Shown here one piece after another: positions 20,720 to 42,903 of a stretch of DNA of 58,676 bases; position 1 is the stretch's first letter, and each line of letters starts with the position of its first letter. The position numbers were made by a program, and so were the translations under genes. The stretch covers positions 1-58,676 of IMG/VR virus record IMGVR_UViG_3300050343_000144, one strand, 5' to 3'. Origin of the DNA: a virus. The notes under the pieces were generated by a model. It ran no database searches. It saw nothing but the letters and a program-made list of their open reading frames with translations, and was not told the DNA's origin.

Positions 20720-22303
20720 ATGAGTTACAGTCCAAAGGATCTTGTATTTGACCAGGAGGGTCGAGACAAATTAAAGAAAGGAATTAATGCGATTACTAAT
20801 GCTGTTAAAAGCACACTAGGTCCATTAGGTAAAACTGTTTTAATTGAGTCTCCAGAACACACCCACGGTATAACCGTTACTAAAGACGGAGTGACTGTAG
20901 CTAAATCTATCTTCTTAGAGGATGCTGTAGAAAACTTAGCTGTAAAGATGATGAAAGAAGCAGCTGACCGAACTGCTAGTTCTGCTGGTGATGGAACAAC
21001 AACTGCAATTGTACTTACTGAGGCAATTATTCGTAACGGAATGAATGCAATAGAGAAAGGCGAAAACATAAATACTACAGAACTTATACGAGACATAAAC
21101 GAAACGGTTAAGGGTATTGTAAAAAACTTAAACAAAGTTTCTAAAAAGGTAAGTTCAAAAACACTTCGTGATGTTGCTACTGTATCTGCGAATAATTCAG
21201 CTGAACTAGGTCGATTAATATCAGATGCTTACAAAGAGCTTGGTAAAGATGGTGTACTGACAGTAGAAAATTCTCAGACTGAAGAAACTTACTATGAAAT
21301 TACTAAGGGTATAAAAATAGAAAGAGGTTATACAACACAGCTTTTTGCTAATAATGAAAGAAACGATGAGTGTGTTTTAGATAATGTTCATATTCTAGTT
21401 ACTGACACAGAGATTCAGAGCTTGATGGAGATTGAGAATATACTTAGACCGATTATTAAAGAAAAGAAAAAACTTTTGATTATAGGAAACTGTACTCAAA
21501 ACGTAGTTAATACATTAGGCGCAAACAAAATTCAGAATAATTTAGCGGTATGTAATATTATACCACCATCGTTTGGATATAAGACCAATGAGTTATTAGC
21601 TGATATTTCGTTATCGATAGGCGCAAAGTATTTTAGTGAGTCTCAAGGAGATGACTTGAGTTTACTTACAATGGATAGCTTAGGGTTTGCTGAGAAAATT
21701 ATTGTTGGGAAGGAAGGTACTGTTATCGTTACATCTAACGAAAAGCAAAATGAAGAGATAGGCGAAAGAATCAACCAACTGAAAGATCAGCACAAGAAGA
21801 CTTCTTTAAACAAGTATGAGAAAGATTTTATATTAGAACGTATAGCGAACTTGACTGGATCTGTTGGCGTTATTTATGTAGGAGCGAACTCAGACATTGA
21901 GCAAAAAGAAAAATTTGACCGCATCGATGATGCGGTGTGTGCTGTTCGTTCAGCGTTAGAAGAAGGAATATTGCCAGGCGGAGGATTAGCTTTACTAAGA
22001 GAGGCTGAGAATTTAGGCGATGGAATTTCAAATGATATATTATATAATTCTTTAACTGCTCCACTTGAGCAGATACTAACTAACGCAGGTGATGATGTTA
22101 AAAAGGTACGTGACTCAATATGTTCTTGTGCGTCAGCTCCAGTAAATTATGGTTATAATGTAAAGACCAAAGAGTATGGTGATATGTTTAAGATGGGGAT
22201 TATTGATCCAGCTAAAGTAACAAAGAACGCACTTATAAATGCAGCAAGTGTTGCAACAACTATACTTAGTACAAACGCAATAGTAACAATGAAACGAGCA
22301 TAA
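20720..22303 (+). CDS. groEL: Phage chaperonin GroEL (Hsp60)
   Basis: 527 residues, close to the bacterial length (about 545). Equatorial ATPase motifs are present: TLGPLGKTV near 32, DGVTVAK (56-62), GDGTTTA (90-96, with D91 in the place of the E. coli hydrolysis-supporting D87), the IDDAVCAVRSALEEG region with D404 in the place of D398, and LPGGGLALL. The C-terminus ends NAIVTMKRA and lacks the GGM-repeat tail. The apical domain (about 190-375) is the most divergent part, so substrate choice may differ from the host. It forms a double ring that folds proteins inside the cavity capped by GroES. groES follows with a TAATG overlap. Many large phage structural proteins are the likely clients. 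Confidence 0.97.
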   Translation: MSYSPKDLVFDQEGRDKLKKGINAITNAVKSTLGPLGKTVLIESPEHTHGITVTKDGVTVAKSIFLEDAVENLAVKMMKEAADRTASSAGDGTTTAIVLTEAIIRNGMNAIEKGENINTTELIRDINETVKGIVKNLNKVSKKVSSKTLRDVATVSANNSAELGRLISDAYKELGKDGVLTVENSQTEETYYEITKGIKIERGYTTQLFANNERNDECVLDNVHILVTDTEIQSLMEIENILRPIIKEKKKLLIIGNCTQNVVNTLGANKIQNNLAVCNIIPPSFGYKTNELLADISLSIGAKYFSESQGDDLSLLTMDSLGFAEKIIVGKEGTVIVTSNEKQNEEIGERINQLKDQHKKTSLNKYEKDFILERIANLTGSVGVIYVGANSDIEQKEKFDRIDDAVCAVRSALEEGILPGGGLALLREAENLGDGISNDILYNSLTAPLEQILTNAGDDVKKVRDSICSCASAPVNYGYNVKTKEYGDMFKMGIIDPAKVTKNALINAASVATTILSTNAIVTMKRA

Positions 22304-22560
22304 TGAAAGCAATAGGGAAAACCATAGTAATTGAAACCATAAAAGAAAAAGAAACTACTGAGTCAGGAATACTACTTACCTCATCAGACAGCAATCAGTT
22401 TAGATATAAAAAAGGAAAGGTAATTCTTCCAGGACACGAATGCTCTGTTATAAATAAAGGTGATATTATTTTTTATGACAAAGCCGCTGGACATACTATG
22501 ATGTTAAACGAAAACATATATACTATTATTCAGGAGCGTGACGTTGTTGTTGTCGAATAA
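22303..22560 (+). CDS. groES: Phage co-chaperonin GroES
   Basis: 85 residues (bacterial GroES about 95). The mobile loop that contacts GroEL is TTESGILLTSSDS (about 18-30), with the hydrophobic ILL tripeptide in the right place. The barrel follows with GKVILPG, NKGDIIFYDKAAGHTMMLNE and a C-terminal YTIIQERDVVVV strand. The ATG overlaps the groEL stop (TAATG), so the pair is translationally coupled. It runs convergently into the following minus-strand gene, overlapping by 35 bases. Confidence 0.93.
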   Translation: MKAIGKTIVIETIKEKETTESGILLTSSDSNQFRYKKGKVILPGHECSVINKGDIIFYDKAAGHTMMLNENIYTIIQERDVVVVE

Positions 22561-33355: not shown

Positions 33356-36300
33356 ATGGCAAACGAATTTAAAATAAGGAAAGGACTAATTGTAGAAGGC
33401 GCTTCAGGTGGTACTGTAGTAGACGTTCAAGGATCACAAGGTCAACTTTTCTCAGTAACAGACGATCTAAGCGGATCTATATTCGCAGTATCAGATATAT
33501 CAGGTGTACCAATACTTGATATCAACTCAAGTGGAATATCTTACTTTGATGGGAGTGTAGGAATAGGTATAGATAACCCTAATAGTAAACTACACGTTTT
33601 AGATGGAGTAGCTGGTACTTATACTCCCGATAGTGAATCAGATACTTTAGTTATTGAATCAGATACACCAGGAGGTATATCATTAATAGGAACAGGTGCA
33701 GGGTCAAATTCTAAGCAATCTATAGTTTTTGGAACAACAAGTGACGTAACCAGTGCGAGGATTATTTACAATAGTAATGACAGTGTTCTTAGCATAGGTA
33801 CTACAACAGCTAGCAATTATTTAAAACTTCTATCTGGAAACGGCGTAACTGCTTTAACTTTAGACGCGTCTCAAAATGCTATTTTTACAGGCGACGTTGG
33901 TATCGGGATTACAAACCCATATTCTGTTTTAGATGTCAATTCAGCCATATCCAGCTCTTCGGTAGATGTAATTACGTTGACTCAAGCTACTAATGGTAAT
34001 GATAAACCAGCGGCTTCGTTTGGTCTGTCTATTCAAAACGGTGGAGAAACAACAAATGCAGCCGATCTCTGGTTTACAACTGCAACTGGTGGTTCTTTAA
34101 CTGAAAAAATGCGTATTAGTTCTGCTGGAGCTATTAAATTCAACGCTTACGGCGCAGGTACTTTAGTGTCAGATGCTTCAGGTAATATTACAGTTTCAAG
34201 TGGCGGTGGTGCTGGAGGTCCTTATTTACCGCTTGCTGGTGGTACAATGACTGGTAATGTAATTTTTCCAGGAGAAGAAGCTAATAGTTTTAAAATAGCT
34301 TTTACTGGAGCATCTGCAAGTTCAGGTATATCTACAGTAGATCAAAGTGGAGCAGGTTTATATATAGGAGCAAACTCAAGAGTAAATAATTCTGGTAATG
34401 TTGTTTATCACGATTCTGCATTACCAAGTAGTGGTATATATTTTGACGGATGGAATGGTGATGATATGGAGTTTTATACAGGATCTTCTGGTAACCCTAC
34501 CAAAAGGTTAACTATTGAAGCAGGAGGTAATGCTATTTTCACAGGTAACGTTGGAATTAACGTAACAAATCCTGGAGTAAAACTTCAATTAGTATCTGCA
34601 GATGAACAGTTAACTAATTTTTCAAGTTCAGTAGCAGATCAACTTGCATATTCTCAAATAAACGCAAGCACAAGTACTTCTGGTACAATTACAGGAGCAG
34701 CTGCTTTAGAATTAGTAGGTAAAGCTAATGCGTCAGGACACGGAAGACACGCTTGGATTGGAGCAGAGGGAACATCTAACACAACACTTTTAACTAAATT
34801 AAAGTTTAAAGTAAGAGGGCAAACAGCAAGTGGCTATGATTGGGCAGGCGCAGCCGAAGCACCTACTATTATGACTTTAGAAGGTGACGGTAACGTAGGG
34901 ATTGGGACGACTGACCCACCTCAAAAACTTAGCCTTTTTGCAGGAACAAACGAAAGCGTTTATGATGTTCTTGGAGTTTATAATTCCGTAACAGGAACTA
35001 CAGCTATGAATAAGGGGGCGGCTATAAGAATAGGTAAAGATATAGACGGTAATTATTCTACAAAAATAGCTACAATATATGAAGGAAACAATCCAAGCTT
35101 TTTACAACCCGCATTAGCATTTTATACAATGCATAACACCTATCTAAAAGATAGTGAAACCGAGAAAATGCGTATATCTTCAAACGGTAACGTCGGTATA
35201 GGATTTACCGCTCCAGGCTCTACTCCTTTATCAACTATGAAATTATCTGTTGATGGTAATGTTTATTTTTCAGGAGATTTAGGTATAGGGACTACTAGTC
35301 CTGGCGCACCTTTAAGTGTAGTTGGAAGCTATTCATCAAGTGATGAAATTATAGAAATAGGAGGTGGAACTGGGGCTAATACAGATTTTAAATTGAAAAT
35401 AGGAGCAGTTGACCAAGATTATATTTGGTTTCAATCTGTAAAACCTGGAGACAATTATTATGATTTAGTTTTTAATCCATCAGGCGGAAACGTAGGTATA
35501 GGTTATGCAACACCCAACTATAGTCTAGAAATAGAAAGCAACAATTCTGCTGGTAGAGCTAGGGTGTATGCCGATGGAAATGGTGCTGTGTTTTCTGCAA
35601 ATGGAGATGTTCAGTTTTTTACTAATAATGCTGCGTATGCTACAAGCTTTTATTCCGCTAACAAAGGTAGTGTAAATATGCGTATTCTGGATAATGGTAA
35701 CGTAGGTATAGGGACTACTAGTCCTGGTGCTAAGTTAGAAGTTCATAAAGACACCCCTTATGGTGCATATGGTCCAACACCAGCTCAATTAAACTTAAGA
35801 AATACAAGCACTGAAGGAACAGCTGGTTTTATACAGTTAAGTGCTTATTACGGTAATGGTGGAGCAAGTGACTATTACCAAGTAGGAGGTATGGGTGGAG
35901 GTAAAGAAACCGCAGCTGGTAGTGGGTGGGGTGGCTACTTATCGTTCTGGACAACTTCAGATGGTACGGCGGGAGCTGCCTCTGGTATGTTTGAACATAT
36001 GAGAATTACAGCAGACGGTAACGTCGGGATCGGTACAACAACACCTAACGCTAAACTTGACGTACAAGGAACACAAGGTCAGTTATTCTCAGTTACAGAT
36101 GATTTATCTGGTGATATATTCTCAGTTGCTGATATATCTGGTGTACCTATAATGAACGTCAACTCTGATGGAACATCTTACTTTGATGGAAACGTCGGGA
36201 TCGGGACGGATAGTCCTGATTCTAAGCTAGATGTAAAAGGACCATCAGCAACACCTGCTGACGGAAACCAAACACTTTCAATTACAAATTCAACAGGAGG

Positions 36301-37501
36301 AACGCAGTTGAATTTAGGTACTGCTGAAAATTCTTATGGATGGATAGAAGCAAGAGAAGGAAGTACTCTTAGAAATTTATTAATCAATCCTAATGGCGGC
36401 AACGTCGGGATCGGGGTAACTAATCCTGTAGCAGCATTAAACATAGGAAACAATGGAAATATAAGGATAGACGGTAATACTAGCGGTGGTGGAATATATG
36501 CCTCTAGCAATGGAAGTAATAATACTTTTTCTCTTACAAGACAAGATGGAGTAAATGTTGGAGATTTATCAATATCGGGTTATTCTGGAGTTGGTATTAC
36601 TGGCGGAAGAACTAGTTCTCCCGCAACTTCTGGATATTCTTTTTATGTTAAAAGCGACGGCAACGTCGGGATTGGAACGGCTAGTCCTGATTATAAGCTT
36701 GAAGTAAATGGTACGTTAGGAGTAAATAGAACTGATGGTATTATTTTTGCAGGTAGTGCAGGATCAGGTTATGGGAACAAAATAACTGCAGATGCAAGTA
36801 ACGACCTTATTTTTAGCACGTCTCTACCGAGCGCTCCATATACTGTTTCCCAAAGAATGCGTATTGCAAATAATGGGGACATAGGGATTGGAGGAAATGC
36901 TCCTTCATATTTATTAGATGTTAGAGACGGAACTGCGAGTGGTGCAATTGCAAGATTTTCTTCTATTAACGCTCACGTTATAATTGAATCAAGTACAGCA
37001 GGACCTGCTGTTTTACATTTTAAACCAAATGCAACAGGTAATAAATCTGGTCAATTTAAAGTAACAGCTGGAAATGGCTATAATTTTAGATGGAGTAATG
37101 ATGCTGCTGGTACATCAGAGGTTACTTATATGACACTTGATACAAGTACTACAGGTGGGGGAGACTTAACAGTGAAAGGAGATGTAATAGCATATGGTTC
37201 ACCATCTGATGTTAGATTAAAAGAAAATATTAAACCTATTAAATCAGCTTTAGATAAAGTAAGAAAAACTACAAGGCGTAACATTTGATTGGAAAAAATC
37301 TGATAGTATATTAGATATAAAAGAAGATGTAGGTTTTATAGCTCAAGATGTACAAAAAGTCATGCCAGAGCTTGTAAGAGAAAACAAAGACGGTATGCTT
37401 TCAATGAGACATCAAGGTATAGCACCAATATTGCTTGAGGCAATAAAAGAATTAAAAGCTGAAATAGAGGAATTAAAAATAAATGTAATTGTAATAAGTA
37501 A
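33356..37501 (+). CDS. Tail fibre with C-terminal S74 chaperone domain (two compensating frameshifts)
   Basis: About 1381 residues. The N-terminus (MANEFKIRKGLIVEGASGGT) is the fibre-attachment domain; more than ten NVGIGT-type stalk repeats follow. The end is an intramolecular chaperone of the peptidase S74 type: PSDVRLKENI (near 37202-37231), then LQGVTFDWKKSD, DVGFIAQDVQKVMPE and a helical ELKAEIEELK tail. The family cuts itself off before this S-D after trimer folding. An extra A near 37265-37270 breaks the frame as given (false stop at 37288), and a missing A near 37478 restores a KNKCNCNK-stop end whose TAA overlaps the next ATG. The largest fibre, probably receptor-binding. Confidence 0.85.
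33428..33568 (+). repeat. 47-residue fibre module shared by two genes (3 copies)
   Basis: The QGxQGQLFSVTDDLSG...SDISGVPI...YFDG-x-VGIG module occurs here, at 28415-28555 and at 36065-36205. All are 141 bases long and in frame, with close protein sequence. They can serve as recombination sites for fibre exchange. Confidence 0.8.
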
Positions 37502-37965
37502 TGGCAGTACCAACTTCAGGAGCATTATCGATGGAGTCTATAGCGCAAGAAGCGTTATATGGCACTTGGGGTTCAGGAACTATAACTGGACCAATATCTA
37601 TGTATGATATGATAAATGGTGGAAACTCTCACGGTTCTGGTAATTCATACCCTACAGTAAACGATGACTGTACACCTAATCCAGTTGATAGATCTTATTA
37701 CCAAATTACTCTAACAGAAGCTACTTATCCTTCTACCCCAAATGTTACTGTTTACACAACAAGAAACCCTATTACAGGTTTAACAACAAATGATGTTTTA
37801 TATGATTATGTAAATGGATCATATACAGCCTGGACAGGTGCTTCACAAACTAATGATTATTGGATATGGAGTCAAGGAACGTTCTTTAATAATTGTACAG
37901 ACTGTCCAATTATTACAGTTAATTCATCTGGGGTAATAACTTCTACTGGTTGTTCTTGTCCTTAA
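37501..37965 (+). CDS. Cys-rich tail-associated protein
   Basis: 154 residues. MAVPTSGALSMESIAQEALY, GTWGSGTITGPISMYDM at the N-terminus is a motif I associate with flavophage tail proteins. The rest is beta-rich with cysteines near the C-terminus (NNCTDCPIITVNSSGVI then TGCSCP), likely a small domain that decorates the tail. Start confirmed by the TAATG overlap with the fibre gene. Confidence 0.6.
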   Translation: MAVPTSGALSMESIAQEALYGTWGSGTITGPISMYDMINGGNSHGSGNSYPTVNDDCTPNPVDRSYYQITLTEATYPSTPNVTVYTTRNPITGLTTNDVLYDYVNGSYTAWTGASQTNDYWIWSQGTFFNNCTDCPIITVNSSGVITSTGCSCP

Positions 37966-39622: not shown

Positions 39623-39847
39623 ATGGACATTAGAAAGATTTCAATAGGAGCAGACTATAAGTCTGGAGCTATGCATTACATAGTAGGGCAGGATGTTCTT
39701 GGAGGATCTTATATTATTCATTTAATACAGCACGACTCAGGCGCAAGTTCATATAAGATTTGGATAGAAAAAAATAAAGAAATTGTTATATGGAAAGAGT
39801 TTAAAACTACCTTACCTATTTCTATCGAATATAATATAAACTTTTAA
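39623..39847 (+). CDS. Hypothetical protein
   Basis: 74 residues, mostly beta (AMHYIVGQDVLGGSYIIHLI). Its TAA overlaps the next ATG (TAATG). No family recognised. Confidence 0.5.
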   Translation: MDIRKISIGADYKSGAMHYIVGQDVLGGSYIIHLIQHDSGASSYKIWIEKNKEIVIWKEFKTTLPISIEYNINF

Positions 39848-40409
39848 TGCAATCTCCATTTTCATTTATTGTACGTCCTGTAAACGGCACTAGGTATGAT
39901 AATGTAAAAAAATAGGAGACTTAGATTTTTTAATTAGCGTATCAAAAGAAGATCATAAAACGGCTAATAGGTATGCGCAAGTGGTGTCAACTCCAATAAA
40001 TTATTCAGGAGATGTCAATATAGGTGACATACTTTTAGTACATCATAATGTTTTTAAATATTACAATGACATGTACGGGCGTGAGAAAAGTGGTAAAAGC
40101 TTTTTTAAAGACGATTTATTCTTTATTGACTTTGATCAATTTTTTTTGTATTATAATAAAGAGGAGTGGAAAAGCCATTCTAAGTATTGTTTTATAAAAC
40201 CTATTCCGCCAAAAAAATCTTTTTTAGGAAAGACCGGAAAAGAAGAACCTCTTATGGGTGTTGTTAAATATAACAATCAAGAGTTAAAAAACTTAGGTGT
40301 AAAGGTAGGAGACGAAGTGTCTTTTACTCCTGAGTCTGAGTATGAGTTTTATGTAGAAGATGAAAAGCTATATAGAATGTTTACAGATAACATAACTATG
40401 ATTATGTAA
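39847..40409 (+). CDS. Possible tandem GroES-like (Cpn10-fold) protein (one frameshift)
   Basis: About 187 residues after restoring one A in the seven-A run at 39906-39912 (as given, the frame stops at 39915 and the rest opens at 39981). Two halves each look like a GroES barrel: FIVRPV (7-12), then GDILLVHHNVF (60-70) in the first; CFIKPI (115-120), a MGVVKYN strand, GVKVGDEVSF (151-160) and SEYEFYVEDEKLYRM followed by DNITMI in the second. The GD-x-h-x-h and final E-x-x-x-x-M-x-x-x-D-I positions match Cpn10. No mobile loop like that of GroES is obvious. It sits just upstream of terminase. Fold inferred from pattern only. Confidence 0.5.
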
Positions 40410-40685
40410 ATGGATATTAAAGATATTAAAGAACAAATAATAAAAGCTGGAGAAAAAGCTGTTATACAATTAATAAAGGTAGCTAAAGAAGATATTATTA
40501 AATACGATAAGGATGATGAGTTAGCTGCTGACAGATTAAAAAATGCTGCTGCTACAAAAAAGCTTGCTATCTTTGACGCTTTTGAAATCCTTAAAAGAAT
40601 AGAAGACGAAAAGCAATTATTAGAGGGTGGTGATATAAAGAAAAATAATACCCCTAAAGGATTTGCAGAATCAAGATCTAAATAA
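40410..40685 (+). CDS. Small helical protein before terminase (candidate small terminase)
   Basis: 91 residues, helical and charged (EQIIKAGEKAVIQLIKVAKE, AADRLKNAAATKKLAIFDAF). No HTH is clear, but the place directly before the large terminase, with a 23-base overlap, suits a DNA-recognition small subunit. It may instead be an assembly chaperone. Confidence 0.45.
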   Translation: MDIKDIKEQIIKAGEKAVIQLIKVAKEDIIKYDKDDELAADRLKNAAATKKLAIFDAFEILKRIEDEKQLLEGGDIKKNNTPKGFAESRSK

Positions 40686-42903
40686 CTTATACACTACACT
40701 AACTAGAGTAGTTCCAAAAAATGTTTTATCTACAAAGAATAAAGCAAGAACTTGGACTTATGGTTATAACGAAAAATATAATTTTGTTGTTATATCTAAG
40801 TCAGGTCAAATAGGTGATGTCATAGAAATAAATGGCCTACATATTGCATTACCAAAAGCTCCTACAAAAGTTTATTCAAGATCCAAAAAAAAAGATGATC
40901 AGTATTGGGAGGCGCATGAAATAAGTAAAGAATTAAAAAGAATACAGTCAATATTTCAATGGCATGAAGCTCCGATACAATTCAAGAAAAATGGGTGGAT
41001 TATATTGAACAAGAGTTTGATAGGAGAGAAGAAGGTTTTTGGTTTATGAATAATGGTGTTCCTACTTATATTACAGGAACACATTATATGTATTTACAAT
41101 GGACAAAGATTGACGTTGGTCATCCAGACTTTAGAGAAGCAAATAGTTTTTTATATATTCTGGGAAGCATGTAAAGCAGATAAAAGAAGTTTTGGTATGT
41201 GTTATTTAAAAATAAGACGTTCTGGGATTTTCATTTATGAGCTCGTGTGAAGGTGTTAACACAGCGACAATAACTAAAGATTCTAGAATAGGTATACTAT
41301 CTAAAACTGGTGCTGATGCAAAAAAATGTTTACAGATAAAGATAGTTCCTATATCTAACAACTATCCTTTCTTTTTTAAACCTATACAAGATGGTATGGA
41401 TAAGCCTAAAACAGAATTAGCTTATCGTGTTCCAGCTTCTAAGATTACTAAAAAGAATATGTATAAGTAAGTGAAGAGGAGCTTGAAGGATTAGACACAA
41501 CTATTGACTGGAAAAATACATCTGACAACAGTTATGATGGTGAGAAGTTACAGTTATTGTTACACGATGAAAGTGGTAAATGGGAAAGGCCAGAGAATAT
41601 ATTAAACAACTGGCGTGTAACTAAAACATGTTTAAGATTAGGTAGTAAAGTTATAGGTAAATGTATGATGGGATCTACATCAAATGCGTTAGATAAAGGT
41701 GGTAGAAATTTTAAAGATTTATTTGAGATCATCTGATTGCAGAAACAGAAACTCTAACGGACAAACAAAAAGCGGTTTATATAATCTTTTATTCCTATGG
41801 AGTGGAATATGGAAGGTTTTATTGACATGTATGGTATGCCTGTGTTTAAGAATCCAGACAAACCTATTAAAGGAATAGACAAAGAAATATTACTCAAGGG
41901 GCTGTAGATTACTGGAAAACGAGGTTGAATCATTAACTTCAGATCCTGACGCTTTAAATGAATTTTATAGACAGTTTCCTAGAACAGAGTCACATGCGTT
42001 TAGAGATGAAAGCAAACAATCATTATTTAATTTAACAAAAATATACCAGCAAATAGATTATAATGATTCTTAAATATGGGACACTTTAACTCAAGGTCTT
42101 TTTCCATTGGAAAATGGTATAAAAGATTCTAAGGTAATCTGGAGCCCAAATAAAAGAGGTAGATTTTTTGTAACTTACATCCCTAAAGCTTCTCTTCAAA
42201 ACAATGTGATTAAGAAGGGTGGAAAGATGTATCCAGGCAATGAACATATTGGATCGTTTGGTTGTGACTCTTATGATATTTCAGGAGTTGTAGTAGGTAA
42301 AGGTTCTAACGGAGCTTTACATGGGCAGACAAAATTTAATATGGATGATGCTCCTAGTAATGAATTCTTTTTAGAATATATTGCTAGACCTCAAACTGCT
42401 GAGATATTTTTTGAAGAAGTTTTAATGGCGTGTATATTTTATGGCATGCCAATATTATGTGAAAATAATAAACCTCGTTTATTGTATCATTTTAAAAATA
42501 GAGGATACCGAGGCTTTTGTTTAAACAGACCTGATAAAACTTATAATAAGTTATCTAAGACTGAAAGAGAGTTAGGGGGTATTCCAAACTCATCTGAAGA
42601 TGTTAAGCAATCTCACGCTCAGCTATTGAGTCGTATATTGAAAAATATGTAGGATTAGATTTTGAAGGAGATTATAGAGAAAAAGACGATATAGGTAGTA
42701 TGTATTTTCAAAGAACACTAGAAGATTGGGCTAAATTTGATATAACAAACAGAACAAAGTTTGATGCTGCGATTAGTTCTGGTTTAGCAATTATGGCAAA
42801 TCAAAAACACTTGTATACACCCGTTCAAAAACAATCAAAAATAAGCATTAACTTTGCAAGATATAATAACAAGAACTCAGTAAGTCAATTACTTAATAAA
42901 TGA
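40663..42903 (+). CDS. terL: Terminase large subunit (many frameshifts)
   Basis: About 746 residues when about a dozen one-base indels are corrected. Fragments run collinearly: 40663-41049, 41053-41250, 41237-41470, 41520-41740, 42107-42652, 42700-42903. Motifs recovered across the breaks: a RRSGFSFMSS Walker A-like loop, LLLHDESGKW (Walker B with catalytic DE), CMMGSTSN (coupling motif) and a C-terminal part (YFQRTLEDWAKFDITNRTKF, ARYNNKNS) that would hold the RNase-H-like nuclease. It packages DNA into proheads. The start is TTG at 40663 as given; a masked ATG is possible. Confidence 0.8.

Follow-up and report, generated by a model that had tools for sequence, protein, structure and literature searches.

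The window analysed here, a stretch of 58,676 nucleotides of viral DNA, encodes a 187-residue protein that very probably consists of two Cpn10-type barrels in one chain, as judged from structure models and profile comparisons. As proposed in the initial annotation, the gene lies near the terminase gene of a phage that also carries groEL and groES. The tandem gene is a core gene of a very common marine phage lineage, in which it is located beside the terminase gene and is usually accompanied by the phage's own groEL and groES genes. The Cellulophaga phages phi38:1 and phi19:3, the Flavobacterium phage elemoF and the Maribacter phage Panino are small cultured systems in which this co-chaperonin could be studied. 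Domain architecture, synteny and co-occurrence were established by computation. The gene already has a name on record, while its tandem architecture in phages appears to be unreported in the open-access literature searched.

In the window, the frame starting with the ATG at position 39847 extends over 22 codons before a stop, and the rest of the gene (39981-40409) is open in another frame. A base-by-base comparison with close viral contigs revealed that 13 of the 15 close relatives carry an extra A in the A run near the beginning of the gene (Table 1). The same 15 relatives support 54 indel positions across 39.9-45.2 kb of the window. Since these indels are so dense, the frameshift in the tandem gene is a sequence error and not a sign of decay. 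A real pseudogene was also ruled out by the intact gene of the relatives, as the full-length ORF is present in about 145 related loci. The terminase gene is shattered in the window because the indel-dense stretch includes it. That the gene codes for a 187-residue protein once the missing A is restored had been suggested before, and the related locus L008 (444-1004) indeed contains an intact gene for exactly this protein. The motifs that had drawn attention to it are likewise present, GDILLVHHNVF in the first half and GVKVGDEVSF together with YEFYVEDEKLYRM...NITMI in the second half. The density of single-base indels between 39.9 and 45.2 kb, which breaks the frames of the terminase and of downstream genes, resembles that of an unpolished long-read stretch.

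Table 1. Features of the tandem co-chaperonin locus and of the presumed partner genes in the window
Feature	Position	Strand	Basis or remark
Putative tandem Cpn10 (Cpn20-like) co-chaperonin gene	39847..40409	+	187 aa if read across one missing base
A run with one base missing (frameshift artefact)	39906..39912	+	extra base in 13/15 close relatives
Predicted N-terminal barrel, divergent Cpn10, residues 1-106	39847..40163	+	AF2, Foldseek, hhalign; without Pfam match
N-half loop at the GroES mobile-loop position, residues 12-41	39880..39968	+	model confidence, column conservation, alignment
C-terminal barrel, Cpn10, residues 107-187	40164..40406	+	Pfam, hhalign, hmmsearch of PDB
C-half mobile-loop position, residues 120-136	40203..40253	+	between model strands 114-119 and 137-142
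Conserved 91-aa ORF between tandem gene and terminase	40410..40685	+	directly downstream in 152/162 loci
Large terminase gene, several broken frames, end approximate	40663..42903	+	phrog_6681 terminase large subunit, E 1.1e-7
Phage GroEL, 527 aa, presumed partner	20720..22303	+	Pfam PF00118, E 5.1e-52
Phage single-domain GroES, 85 aa, possible ring partner	22303..22560	+	Pfam PF00166, E 4.4e-11

Structure prediction of the corrected protein bore out the GroES-type fold that had been suspected for both halves. When the AF2 model of the whole protein (pLDDT 84.5, pTM 0.75) was compared with the PDB by Foldseek, the best matches were 7ekq_R and 7ekq_Q (E 4.6e-5, TM 0.54), of which chain R is the Cpn20 co-chaperonin subunit in the Chlamydomonas ClpP complex. 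The matches at ranks 3-33 were all GroES, Cpn10 or gp31, with single GroES chains scoring about 0.32. With a chain of 187 residues, a match to a single barrel could not reach a TM-score of 0.54. The model of the N half alone (pLDDT 87.3) also led to GroES: among 350,542 PDB chains, the first three ranks were all occupied by GroES (best probability 0.91, E 0.15), and the top 20 consisted of GroES or of dehydrogenases and reductases with a GroES fold, the E-values being weak (0.15 upward). The tandem model also resembles a predicted viral protein of 304 aa in BFVD (A0A516L046; TM 0.73, 20% identity), possibly a longer fusion of co-chaperonins.

By profile, the C half clearly belongs to Cpn10/GroES. 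It matched a Cpn10 profile built from 47 sequences with an hhalign E-value of 1.5e-10. The window protein itself reaches E 0.0038 and 17.7 bits with Pfam PF00166, which is under the curated cut-off of 21.1 bits. The E-values improve to as much as 1.6e-7 in relatives and to 9.6e-12 for the C half of a divergent member of the family (L360), and the tandem proteins of phi19:3, phi18:3, phi13:2, phi38:1 and Calle_2 score above the cut-off. A search of the PDB sequences with hmmsearch was not significant with the window clade alone (E 0.85); with divergent relatives included, it retrieved GroES (1.2e-4) and the Cpn20 subunit (0.0082), in both cases through the C half only.

The Cpn10 resemblance noticed earlier in the first half was recovered by profile-profile comparison and not by Pfam, which gave no Cpn10 match for the N halves of the window clade, phi38:1, elemoF, Panino, phi19:3 and six further phi19:3-type members. 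In hhalign comparisons with the Cpn10 profile, the N half scored 24.6, the maximum among 150 column-permuted controls being 17.1, and the alignment is in register over strand 1, the mobile loop, strand 2 and the GD turn. An earlier, thin Cpn10 profile had given only an E-value of 0.02 for the N half. The score of a pooled set of N halves was also above all 150 controls, that of the phi19:3 clade alone was not clearly above them (8/150), and adding this clade to the profile did not improve the N-half score, although single sequences of the clade show the motif plainly. The N halves of the window clade and of the phi19:3 clade are homologous (hhalign E 4e-22). An internal repeat is hardly visible, as hhalign matched only 14 columns between the N and C halves of the window clade. 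A chance resemblance of motifs was ruled out by the column-permuted controls and the structure match. AlphaFold, Foldseek, the profile-profile comparison and the mobile-loop motif of the sister clade agree that the N half is, by prediction, a very divergent Cpn10 barrel. This half is the more conserved one, with a mean column identity of 75% vs 66% in the C half, and residues 60-87 reach 87%. They form the near-invariant stretch GD-x-LLVHHNVFKxYNDMxGRxKSGKSFF, which beyond the GD strand has no counterpart in GroES. Because the conservation of the N half includes this non-GroES segment, we propose a specific extra contact, and residues 60-87 may represent the binding or contact site.

It had been stated that the double barrel has no clear mobile loop. 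This statement has to be revised, because each half possesses a loop at the GroES position, and the motif is canonical in the phi19:3 clade. In the N half of the window protein, this loop has the lowest model confidence, with means of 68 for residues 21-30 and 60 for residues 31-40. A GroES mobile loop of the KTESGLEL type is found in the N halves of 18 of 30 members of the phi19:3 clade (at most 3 in residue shuffles), and it nearly always starts at residue 20, like KSAGGIVL of E. coli GroES. Residues L26 and F28 of the window protein align with L-x-L of KTESGLEL. The C halves of the phi19:3 clade carry loops of the SGLIIT/GSIFIP type in 17 of 30 members (shuffles at most 4), with which residues 120-136 of the window protein align. 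In the window clade, the position of the loop is kept, while its motif has diverged; polar residues are invariant at many of its sites, which is not usual for mobile loops. Thus, both halves contain a candidate GroEL-binding mobile loop, with canonical hydrophobic residues in the phi19:3 clade.

The terminase gene is found downstream of the tandem gene in 160 of 162 loci, and a small ORF, located at 39623-39847 in the window, flanks the tandem gene on the other side in 156 of them. To avoid circularity, loci were also fetched by terminase alone, using three divergent terminases, and were counted if 1.4 kb or more of upstream sequence was available. In 103/103 of these loci, the tandem gene was present upstream of the terminase (8 phi38:1-type, 63 window-type and 32 phi19:3-type). 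A position directly before the terminase, as originally described, applies to phi38:1, elemoF and Panino, in which the tandem gene abuts or overlaps the terminase gene, and not to the window's own clade, in which the 91-aa ORF intervenes. This ORF could be a candidate for the small terminase. Further upstream, a gene for a large tail protein (33356-37288) ends in the apparent start of an endosialidase-type chaperone domain (SPSDVRLKENIKPI; window 37250-37610). The domain seems to be continued in another frame at 37362, and this is probably another frameshift.

Searching with the tandem protein identified at least 597 confirmed viral contigs. The cultured members infect Cellulophaga, Flavobacterium and Maribacter, and the hosts of the known members are thus Bacteroidota. 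Both chaperonin genes that had been recognised in the window were confirmed by Pfam (E 5e-52 for GroEL and 4e-11 for GroES). The expected co-occurrence with a phage groEL is usual, as it applies to 20 of 23 records; groEL was missing from phi19:3 and from two contigs, which are 44.7 and 54.4 kb long. It is also absent from phi18:3 and phi13:2, so that three complete circular Baltivirus records, including that of phi19:3, contain the tandem gene without groEL. These phages show that the link between the tandem protein and a phage GroEL is not a strict one. Thus, the idea of a dedicated cap for the phage GroEL agrees with the usual co-occurrence and is weakened by these three genomes. A single-domain GroES is encoded in all records with a complete groEL and also in the three complete Baltivirus records without groEL, and is the most constant companion of the tandem protein.

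The initial annotation was not aware of any earlier description of such a phage protein beside a terminase. This does not hold for the gene as such, which is annotated at this position in phi13:2, phi18:3, phi19:3, phi38:1, elemoF, Panino and Calle_2, with the labels 'co-chaperonin GroES' or 'chaperonin cpn10'. In RefSeq, phi38:1 gp089 and elemoF gp30 are named co-chaperonin GroES, and the record notes of phi19:3 gp101, phi18:3 gp096 and phi13:2 gp096 cite Pfam PF00166. The window protein itself belongs to PHROG 13932 'co-chaperonin GroES' (phrog_13932, E 8.4e-20, residues 5-183). Homology over the full length and the same gene position identify this as the same family, whose annotation names one Cpn10 only. 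Chaperonin cpn10 has been listed as a core protein of the Pervagoviridae (PMC8776804), GroEL has been reported in phi38:1-like environmental genomes (PMC5332604), and GroEL and GroES have been reported in Panino (PMC11590407). When the full text of the open-access literature was searched for GroES/Cpn10 in tandem or double form, all papers retrieved dealt with plastids, the apicoplast or chaperonins in general. Within this literature and the sequence records consulted, the double nature of the phage protein appears to be unreported, although it may have been mentioned elsewhere. According to one study, tandem co-chaperonins occur only in plant and algal chloroplasts and the apicoplast (PMC3542282).

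The plastid proteins are the closest known counterparts in architecture. Like the phage protein as predicted, Cpn20/Cpn21 of chloroplasts and the apicoplast consists of two Cpn10 barrels arranged head to tail in about 190 aa. Cpn20 is the closest solved fold over the whole length, and in plants and algae it coexists with a single-domain Cpn10, as the phage tandem protein does with GroES. The two differ in that their identity is about 15%, that the N half of the phage protein is far more divergent, and that the latter is phage-borne, encoded beside a terminase and known from sequence and prediction. As no dependable tree can be built at 15% identity, we assume by default that the two fusions arose independently. 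Cpn20 and Cpn10 chains of Chlamydomonas and Arabidopsis form seven-domain lids, and homo-oligomers of Cpn20-type proteins can act on GroEL as well (PMC5780408, PMC3542282, PMC4242682). T4 gp31, which folds the capsid protein gp23 on host GroEL (PMC6318259), is likewise phage-encoded, has a GroES fold and shares the likely link to virion proteins. However, gp31 has a single domain, forms heptamers and uses host GroEL, whereas the phages described here combine a two-domain protein with a separate GroES and usually their own GroEL. With respect to GroES/Cpn10 (PF00166), profile matches place the C half in the family, and the N half shares the predicted fold and the loop position; the window protein differs from this family in being a tandem, in scoring below the Pfam cut-off and in its extra conserved N-half segment.

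We regard it as probable that the protein is a Cpn20-like tandem lid, which closes a GroEL-type chaperonin for folding phage proteins, most plausibly those of the virion. With regard to chaperonin binding, client identity, ring composition and timing, we infer by analogy. The two head-to-tail GroES-type beta-barrels would act as a lid on the phage GroEL where it is encoded and otherwise on host GroEL, and closure would be achieved through the mobile loops of the tandem protein. The clients would most plausibly be virion proteins, which would be made late, together with terminase, portal and capsid. Because a single-domain GroES is encoded in every complete genome checked, the simplest match to the seven-fold GroEL would be a mixed ring in which three tandem chains are joined by one single GroES (3 x 2 + 1 = 7 barrels). 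Several features count against the lid reading: the N half has no Pfam match, weak Foldseek E-values and, in the phi19:3 clade, a profile score not clearly above the controls; it is more conserved than the C half and contains the segment foreign to GroES; and the loops of the window clade deviate from the canonical motif. More tentatively, GroEL, GroES and the tandem GroES might constitute a three-part phage machine with a mixed 3 + 1 lid, which would be an independent counterpart of the chloroplast Cpn10/Cpn20 system, and the divergent N barrel might render the lid asymmetric and tuned to a virion protein. In the cultured phages, one could ask what the asymmetry of a lid is for, how a lid with an even number of barrels fits a chaperonin of seven-fold symmetry, and which of the virion proteins depends on it.

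An even-numbered lid is the subject of an alternative that we consider somewhat doubtful. The tandem protein might form a homo-oligomeric lid of its own from three or four chains (six or eight barrels), independent of the single GroES and serving different clients. AtCpn20 and PfCpn20 behave as tetramers and work with GroEL alone, and concatamers with six and eight domains are functional (PMC5780408, PMC3542282). Independence would also agree with the distance between the genes, as groES adjoins groEL and the tandem gene adjoins the terminase, far apart in the genomes. However, the single GroES is always retained, even in the Baltivirus genomes without groEL, and joint action of both proteins explains this more easily. 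The unbroken synteny with the terminase, the abutting or overlapping genes in phi38:1, elemoF and Panino and the strong non-GroES conservation in the N half could also be reconciled with a GroES-derived assembly or packaging factor, the barrels of which would act in the assembly of capsid, portal or terminase and no longer serve a chaperonin. We rate such a structural role as unlikely, because the Cpn10 character of the C half is well preserved and the phi19:3 clade has retained mobile-loop motifs in both halves, for which there would be no use if no chaperonin were involved. To a lesser degree, it also counts that the phi38:1 tandem gene is not labelled as a structural protein, unlike its downstream neighbours.

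Two further readings concern the partner of the lid. The three complete Baltivirus genomes, which encode the tandem protein and GroES without groEL, would be compatible with a decoy or modulator that captures or blocks the host chaperonin instead of aiding folding, since host GroEL would be the target there. This is improbable, because most relatives encode their own groEL and a gene located among those for morphogenesis would come late for a factor that takes over the host. Even less credit can be given to the idea that the protein closes a different ring, for instance host ClpP, as Cpn11/20/23 do on the ClpP core of Chlamydomonas. It is true that the best whole-length fold match is a Cpn20 chain in the ClpP complex 7ekq (PMC8889267), but this match reflects the tandem co-chaperonins of the complex and not a shared partner, and the co-occurrence with phage groEL points to a chaperonin.

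The searches also yielded observations beyond the phage lineage. In many Bacteroidota genomes (loci L223-L232), the normal GroES is accompanied by another GroES-like protein, which is atypical in having about 120-140 aa and a long insert ahead of the GD strand. Moreover, stretches of the same phage type were found inside MAGs labelled Aenigmatarchaeota and Aliivibrio (L186, CP070801.1 863633-884193; L183, L187 and L189). The Aenigmatarchaeota MAG with the phage stretch is a single 1.05-Mb chromosome, and such MAGs are probably chimeric or mis-binned.
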